From: Solibacteraceae bacterium
GTDB taxonomy: Bacteria; Acidobacteriota; Terriglobia; Bryobacterales; Bryobacteraceae
Assembly: GCA_021324015.1 (NCBI GenBank)
Contig: JAJPJX010000099.1
Location: 62,001 to 126,000 of the forward strand
Length of the DNA stretch: 64,000 nt
Direction of reading: 5' to 3'
Positions 24,324 through 24,821 of the stretch are shown in pieces. Position numbers and translations under genes: made by a program. The notes below the pieces were generated by a model, which saw only the letters and a program-made list of their open reading frames with translations, made no database searches and was not told the origin of the DNA. Every line of letters starts with the position of its first letter. Position 1 is the stretch's first letter.

Positions 24324-24554
24324 TTAGGCTACGGGCTGAGCCTTTTTCCCACGAGTTGCCTTGTACTTCTTTTCAAAACGATCTACCCGTCCCGCCGTAT
24401 CCACCAATTTCTGACGTCCGGTAAAGAACGGGTGGCAGTGCGAGCAGATTTCCACCCGGATATCACCCTTGTGAGTGGACCGGGTCTTGAAGGTATGCCC
24501 GCAGGCGCAAACGACGTTGATTTCGTTGTAGGCGGGATGAATTCCAGCTTTCAT
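24324..24554 (-). CDS. rpmE: Ribosomal protein bL31
   Basis: 76 residues from ATG 24554. [22 protein letters not shown] and [14 protein letters not shown] are diagnostic of bL31; cysteines C16, C18, C37 and C40 make it the zinc-binding C+ form. It is part of the 50S subunit at the intersubunit bridge. The start has no good Shine-Dalgarno; instead an extended -10 (TGGTATACT) ends 7 nt upstream, which would put the transcript start at or next to the ATG. The strong terminator further upstream should insulate it from the preceding RNA unit. Confidence 0.95.
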
Positions 24555-24561
24555 TTTTCCG

Positions 24562-24567
24562 AGTATA
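24562..24567 (-). promoter_or_regulatory. Extended -10 box of rpmE, leaderless geometry
   Basis: On the minus strand TGG-TATACT is followed by 7 nt (CGGAAAA) and then the ATG. There is no clear -35, which is acceptable for an extended -10. It implies a leaderless or nearly leaderless mRNA. Confidence 0.5.
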
Positions 24568-24570
24568 CCA

Positions 24571-24611
24571 GAAAATACAAACCCCCGTGGATTCTCACGA
24601 ATGCACGGGGG
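24571..24611 (-). terminator. Intrinsic terminator of the RNA unit upstream of rpmE
   Basis: On the minus strand CCCCCGUG (24611-24604) and CACGGGGG (24589-24582) form a perfect 8-bp stem with a 14-nt loop, followed by the U-rich UUUGUAUUUU. It lies 17 nt before rpmE and points toward it. Confidence 0.85.
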
Positions 24612-24718
24612 CCAGGTAGCCTTAAAAAACCTGAGGCTTGGGCTTACGCGAGAGGTAGCCGGTCCACAGGAACTTGACCCTGTCACTGAACAGGATCGAC
24701 AACGTTAGAGGCTCGACT

Positions 24719-24757
24719 TTAGCAGTCGGCCACCTCGCGCGGTCTACTGTCGTTCAT
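24719..24757 (-). CDS. Possible 12-codon leader peptide in the RNA unit
   Basis: ATG at 24757 after AAGGAGGUGG (10-13 nt spacing) gives MNDSRPREVADC and a UAA stop. Translation would run through the 5' arm of the main stem (24739-24727), so ribosome occupancy could switch the RNA fold. There is no homology evidence; it may be a chance frame. Confidence 0.3.
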   Translation of the reverse strand: MNDSRPREVADC

Positions 24758-24792
24758 TATTTCTGGACCACCTCCTTTCCAGTGATGGCTTA

Positions 24793-24821
24793 ATGGTAGC
24801 TCCAGCGGAATGGCTTGTCAA
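24793..24821 (-). promoter_or_regulatory. Sigma-70 promoter of the RNA unit
   Basis: Perfect -35 TTGACA (24821-24816), a 17-nt spacer, and -10 TACCAT (24798-24793). The predicted start is near 24786. No gene on the minus strand other than this RNA begins within 200 bp downstream. Confidence 0.65.

Follow-up and report, generated by a model that had tools for sequence, protein, structure and literature searches.

The minus strand of the window (the whole 64,000-nucleotide stretch of DNA that was analysed) encodes a structured RNA of about 215 nt which, in the window as in its relatives, has its own promoter and terminator, and which, judged by sequence comparison, is a real, conserved and translated RNA distantly related to the Ms_IGR-5 family of Actinobacteria. 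It is very probably an independent, mostly single-copy structured RNA that is at the same time a mini-mRNA, and thus a divergent Acidobacteriota relative of Ms_IGR-5. Comparison across relatives establishes the promoter, an extended Shine-Dalgarno (SD) sequence, a short open reading frame (sORF), two stems (P1 and P3), a kissing helix and the terminator. Our best overall explanation joins this identity to a ribosome-switch mini-mRNA acting in trans, and we give it a probability of roughly 0.6. All features below lie on the minus strand, with coordinates given in the window.

The sigma-70-type promoter (TTGACA-17-TACCAT, 24793–24821) was identified by pattern scan and is conserved in relatives: 70 of the 71 distinct loci from the order carry TTGAC upstream, compared to 2/71 in a control stretch of the same size, and a -10 hexamer (at least 3 of 6 matches) lies 16–18 nt from TTGAC in 69 of the same 71. 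AUCACUGGAAAGGAGGUGGUCCAGAAAUAAUG (24786–24755) is 3′ of the promoter, and at the other end pattern scan and predicted fold place an intrinsic GC terminator with a U tail (24571–24613) ahead of rpmE. The pattern scan of the window would not by itself establish either signal (one promoter against 0.5 expected, one terminator against 1.3). Promoter and stems are not chance occurrences, however, because relatives keep TTGAC, the stems covary and the fold is unusually stable. A first-pass annotation had proposed this promoter, the GC hairpin with its U-rich tail and, between them, a complete minus-strand small-RNA unit; all three are borne out, the unit as a whole being strongly supported by the conserved promoter, the covarying stems, the terminator and matches in 187 of 200 genomes of the order.

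The same annotation took the roughly 215 nt to be without a protein gene, and this did not hold. An sORF of 12 codons and TAA, with an AUG start, encodes MNDSRPREVADC (24757–24719); it is conserved in frame, and its 3′ end is one strand of the long stem (P1) already described in that annotation. Ahead of it lies the extended SD, GGAAAGGAGGUGGUCCAG (24763–24780), complementary with two G-U pairs to the 16S 3′ tail CUGGAUCACCUCCUUUCU, a duplex of 18 pairs with a predicted energy of -33.5 kcal/mol. The 16S 3′ end reads GCUGGAUCACCUCCUUUCUAAGAGAG in 10 loci from 8 of the 14 genomes searched, with a search pattern that itself fixed GGATCACCTCCTTT and with the mature end assumed at UCU. In the genome of the window no 16S 3′ end matched either of two patterns tried, and the assembly may lack its 16S gene.

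Within the sORF, the codons for E-V form an internal SD-like GAGGUG (24731–24736), 6 nt ahead of the last sense codon, which is predicted to pair with the 16S tail and stands at a fixed spacing from the stop. In the reading frame of GAG, an ORF whose stop lies exactly five codons from GAG is present in 70 of 71 distinct loci of the order (the exception is L026), in 13/13 loci at class level and in 14 of 19 at phylum level, where the other five obey the rule via a second GAGGUG copy. It holds likewise in 71 of 73 distinct loci from named genomes among the matches listed, a set whose selection used just the SD and GAGGTGGCYGM and left start and stop codons out of account; loci of the order, class and phylum were gathered mainly through BLAST or covariance and sequence models. 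One of the two named exceptions, L198, is mis-anchored and fits in the sORF reading, and the other, L180 from Phycisphaerales, looks like a chance pattern match and was rejected as a family member. Neither of the other two frames ever obeys the rule. The mere presence of an open frame with a start codon is less telling, frame 1 being likewise open in 30 of 71 order-level loci and in 62 of 73 named loci among the matches listed. Across relatives the sORF spans 11–22 codons, varying by whole codons, and usually ends E-V-A-x-x-stop; the N-terminal part is unconserved, the last residue may be C, S, F, P, G, R, A, T, V or H, and the stretch of codons ahead of GAG is rich in A and T (41–46% GC compared to 59–68% around it). 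As in a dual-function small RNA, a conserved reading frame thus stands behind an SD, and the pattern of sequence change indicates that selection maintains the frame and the position of the stop more than the peptide. In four loci (L091, L097, L101 and L102) GAGGUG is altered to GAGGGU or GAGGGA, which weakens the internal-SD role there. Five loci of one phylum-level family, f31 (L265, L266, L274, L277 and L283), carry two GAGGUG copies in the sORF, for instance MSYHCSSEVTYRTREVAAT and stop, as if the internal SD had been duplicated.

The two internal stems of the first-pass annotation are confirmed, and both covary. P1 joins a 5′ strand overlapping the end of the sORF (24727–24741) to a 3′ strand at 24647–24661, with 8 of 14 pairs changed on both sides, and P3 (24676–24697; 5 of 7 pairs changed on both sides) exposes the loop UCAGUG at 24689–24684. 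Sequence and predicted fold place between them a small hairpin, P2 (GACU...AGUC, 24715–24727), with the stop codon in its loop. Missed at first reading was the complementarity of the 5′ end, CACUGG (24779–24784), to the P3 loop, a possible kissing or pseudoknot helix in which 94.7% of cells are paired and 3 of 6 pairs show double-sided changes; the last pair is A-U in 47 sequences, G-C in 13 and unpaired in 11, and the other two double-changed pairs rest on single sequences. Covariation in homologues, which the annotation had suggested looking for, was counted on 72 loci: P1, P3 and the kissing helix together have 93.6% of cells paired compared to 87.2% in shuffles, and 16 of 27 pairs changed on both sides against 8.0 expected. 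Double-changed cells number 119 against 31.4 expected, with none of 500 shuffles as high, in a control that leaves the relatedness of the sequences in place; slid versions of the structure drop to 31–47% paired. P1 and P3 were named by hand from one sequence and then tested on the 72-sequence model alignment, which was fitted to them and thus leans towards them, the kissing helix being outside that model. The alignment leaves out repeats (L031, L037, L039, L042, L047, L049, L050, L054, L057, L058, L064 and L073) as well as L081, L098 and L101, and covers few of the places found in the 187 order genomes. The predicted fold of the native RNA has an energy of -83.8 kcal/mol (z = -3.47), and none of 200 shuffles was equally stable. 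RNAalifold on a plain MAFFT alignment gave a poor consensus, owing to the varying length of the sORF.

Part of the sORF, GGUGGCC, has an alternative partner in GGCUACC (24615–24621), just 5′ of the terminator; we call this pairing P0. Exact GGCYACC occurs in 27 of 66 order-level loci, with 0.016 expected per locus. Of the named loci with GGTGGCTGC among the matches listed, 46 of 53 carry an exact GCAGYYACC no more than 130 nt downstream (0.004 expected per locus), and in many named loci among those listed the 3′ segment of P0 stands just before a GC hairpin. Across phyla the general form would be GGUGGCUG with CAGYNACC, and there are apparently compensated variants, GGGUGCUG with CAGUAUCC in L091 and L102 and, by eye and with one base bulged, GGUGCCUG with CAGGCCACC in L269 and L280. 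Automated scoring of the P0 duplex before the terminator placed 24 of 107 loci at rank 5 or better out of 100, with a terminator finder that fails on many actinobacterial loci and left 30 of 137 without a call. A further alternative involves the SD itself, since its core GGAGGUGGUCC nearly repeats GAGGUGGCC inside the ORF and the two compete for one partner. In the predicted minimum-energy fold it is the SD that pairs with the P1 3′ strand (SD with UGGACC...ACCUC), and not GAGGUGGCC. GGACC (24661–24665) can there pair with GGUCC of the SD, which would lengthen the pairing of a possible SD-closed state; 56 of the 72 aligned sequences retain this GGACC. Such pairing can hardly show covariation, as the rRNA holds the SD fixed.

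An Rfam search at gathering thresholds, another check proposed in the annotation, gave no match in the window and only an unrelated tRNA among 13 order-level relatives, but a known relative was found below the cut-off. The closest family is RF02471 (Ms_IGR-5), listed by Rfam as an Actinobacteria small RNA. With permissive settings the window scores 29.5 bits against a cut-off of 45, aligning end to end (model positions 1–184), and it is the best match to this family in its whole 8.2-Mb genome (E 2.3e-4). Such a loose search also returns below-cut-off matches in 2 of 14 control genomes, and two further ones in the genome of the window (23.3 and 17.1 bits), the stronger of which was rejected as a second copy on reading, as it lies inside protein-coding sequence (L120). 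Of 13 class relatives, six match at E≤1 and one, the Acidobacteriota locus L092, passes the cut-off at 49.5 bits. The order of parts is shared with Ms_IGR-5: an ACAC/CACUG 5′ end, AAGGAGGUGGUCC, a short ORF ending GAG GUG GCU and a stop, a variable domain, and a segment complementary to GGUGGCUGC, often just before a GC hairpin. The window has the extended SD, the EVA-x-x-stop sORF and the 3′ complement GGCUACC, marks of the family that were derived from relatives and are distinct from Rfam's definition. Unlike Ms_IGR-5, the Bryobacterales add a strong P1, P3 and the 5′-end kissing helix, and their sORFs, of 12–22 codons, mostly end EVAD[C/S].

Published work describes Ms_IGR-5 as transcribed in S. 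lividans (PMC8079986) and as matching a small-RNA unit of S. avermitilis (PMC8780764). A third report gives significant ribosome-protected reads for its homologues in M. abscessus and M. smegmatis, with the caution, from the same authors, that many classical ncRNAs also show ribosome footprints (PMC4974804). The open-licence literature searched reports no sORF or function for either Ms_IGR-5 or CC2171 (RF01867), a Caulobacter small RNA that the window resembles at 21.9 bits (cut-off 75; E 0.014 in a 551-base search), mainly through a shared 5′ block, GAAAGGAGGUGAUCCAG. The sORF of CC2171 differs from that of the window, and no GAGGUG-stop module was seen in CC2171 copies; the likeness may be convergent rather than homologous. 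Four CC2171-like loci on alphaproteobacterial plasmids or chromids (L242–L245, around position 600) have a GTG- or ATG-started sORF (MSHC...) right after an extended SD and, by eye, a CAUUGUC early in the ORF whose complement, GACAAU(G) or GGCAAUG, precedes a hairpin. A further candidate copy, L246, lacks the SD and was rejected. The first-pass view that the RNA is neither 6S RNA nor tmRNA stands: neither gives a gathering match in the window, and both lie elsewhere in the same genome, 6S on contig C94 (46.9 bits, cut-off 46.4) and tmRNA on contig C173.

That annotation had also proposed looking for conservation in homologues, and this reaches well beyond close strains. By blastn the element is found in 33 of 61 genomes including its own, where it is single-copy, and a covariance model (R1, built from the 22 sequences of alignment A1) gives the 187 matching order genomes. 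In six of these (G110, G117, G162, G167, G176 and G204) R1 matches twice. A sequence-only model (R2, alignment A3), built on the 5′ block in mixed phyla, recovers one of the 13 genomes missed by R1, as a partial match (positions 4–39) near a contig start. The remaining 12, six of them 97–99% complete, have no match to R1 or R2, so the element is not universal in the order. At class level, under stricter filters, it is present in 74 of 250 genomes, 16 of them outside the order; one of the latter, G260, has a score resembling that of Bryobacterales copies, and contamination is possible there. Fifteen loci were fetched from these 16 genomes and 14 have SD and sORF, for example L084 with MTDDSRPSEVAEA and stop, while L096 fails the pattern. 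At phylum level R2 matches 81 of 396 genomes, including 41 of 43 in family f11, members of which were in its training set; the search also covered family f60, where weak matches near E 3e-4 occur. Among the best 30 phylum places, which were fetched, 26 were located by pattern and all 26 have the sORF. A scan of named genomes with SD...GAGGTGGCYGM found at least 120 stretches, of which 80 were listed. Among those listed are stretches from Mycobacterium, Streptomyces, Nocardioides, Cellulomonas, Salinispora, Acidimicrobiia and Bryobacterales/Terriglobia, as well as from metagenome-assembled genomes whose submitters' own labels are Nitrospirae (2), Zixibacteria (1), Spirochaetia (1) and Deltaproteobacteria (1). 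The same design in several distant phyla suggests an overlooked ribosome-linked RNA.

The gene downstream in the window (24324–24554), which we take by recognition to be rpmE (L31), is a frequent but not constant neighbour. Read through mechanically, its frame runs back across the terminator and the small RNA as a 120-aa ORF (24324–24686), an extension that is probably spurious and could mislead automatic annotation. The placement of the unit upstream of rpmE in the first-pass annotation holds for the window and for 19 of the 28 locatable loci (of 30), in which rpmE lies directly 3′. In the other nine tblastn finds no rpmE, though one, L025, ends about 340 nt downstream, too soon for a firm absence. 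A tRNA is the neighbour in L030. Among 13 further loci, of other phyla or classes, with neighbours listed, the genes differ and no constant downstream gene is apparent. With its proximity to rpmE in most loci, and with an sORF, alternative helices and a terminator that together recall a leader-peptide attenuator, the element might be read as a cis-acting leader of rpmE, in which translation of the leader ORF decides between terminator formation and read-through. Such a leader would be constantly associated with its gene. The nine loci without rpmE nevertheless each keep the element and a called terminator-like hairpin, the 13 loci of other phyla or classes show no constant gene to regulate, and P1 is clear of the terminator stem, which P0 abuts. 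We consider this reading very unlikely, doubt that rpmE is the RNA's target, and, as the association is not constant, regard the element as an independent gene. In prfB-type internal-SD and leader-peptide mRNAs an SD-like sequence stands at a fixed distance from the stop and the ORF overlaps a helix. The element shares both features with them; unlike them it has no constant downstream gene and is free-standing with its own terminator.

Two other readings place the function in one product only. The peptide itself, MNDSRPREVADC and its relatives, could be the functional molecule, with the RNA structure tuning its expression, and the conservation across phyla of frame and C-terminal EVA, together with synonymous changes such as GCC/GCT and GAC/GAT, points that way. 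However, the N-terminal part and the last residue are unconserved, the conserved codons coincide with the P1/P0 strand, and EVA is replaced in some loci by EGA or EGT and elsewhere by EVP, so that we hold a peptide gene to be improbable. An ordinary base-pairing small RNA, or a decoy whose extended SD sequesters 30S subunits and whose translation is incidental, would fit the 18-nt complementarity to the 16S tail with its strong predicted energy, and would fit conservation as a free-standing gene. This too seems unlikely, if a little less so, as a decoy needs no ORF whereas the frame and exact stop are kept in 70/71 order-level and in 71/73 named loci among those listed.

What these observations lead us to infer is that ribosome occupancy, not the peptide, matters, and that the element is a translation-controlled switch. 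In the mechanism we tentatively favour, which we hold at somewhat less than even odds, 30S subunits would load through the extended SD, and pairing this strong should make loading efficient. The ribosome would translate as far as the stop codon. At that point GAGGUG would lie 6 nt 5′ of the P-site codon, a spacing usual for initiation. The anti-SD could then re-pair with GAGGUG and the ribosome linger at the stop; no AUG, GUG or UUG for re-initiation lies within about 25 nt after the stop in the window. A lingering ribosome would keep the P1/P0 5′ strand open, and without one GGUGGCC would pair with its 3′ partner or partners and the RNA would close. The peptide would be incidental. The state of the RNA, and hence its stability or interactions, would report ribosome loading, and it would act in trans, as no constant neighbour was found.

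A bolder extension, which we regard as speculative and rather unlikely, would unite the elements of Acidobacteriota, Actinomycetota, Nitrospirae, Spirochaetia, Zixibacteria and possibly Alphaproteobacteria (CC2171) in one ancient RNA superfamily. In each, near-total pairing with the 16S tail would bring a ribosome onto the RNA, an internal SD would park it at a fixed stop, and the free-standing RNA would sense or buffer free ribosomes in trans. If the family does span phyla with a core mini-ORF that loads and stops ribosomes, it would be a widely distributed RNA linked to translation that has stayed hidden because an ORF this short escapes annotation. Its function would then be directly testable in tractable actinomycetes, and it would offer a natural system for the effects of extreme SD strength and of internal SDs at termination.
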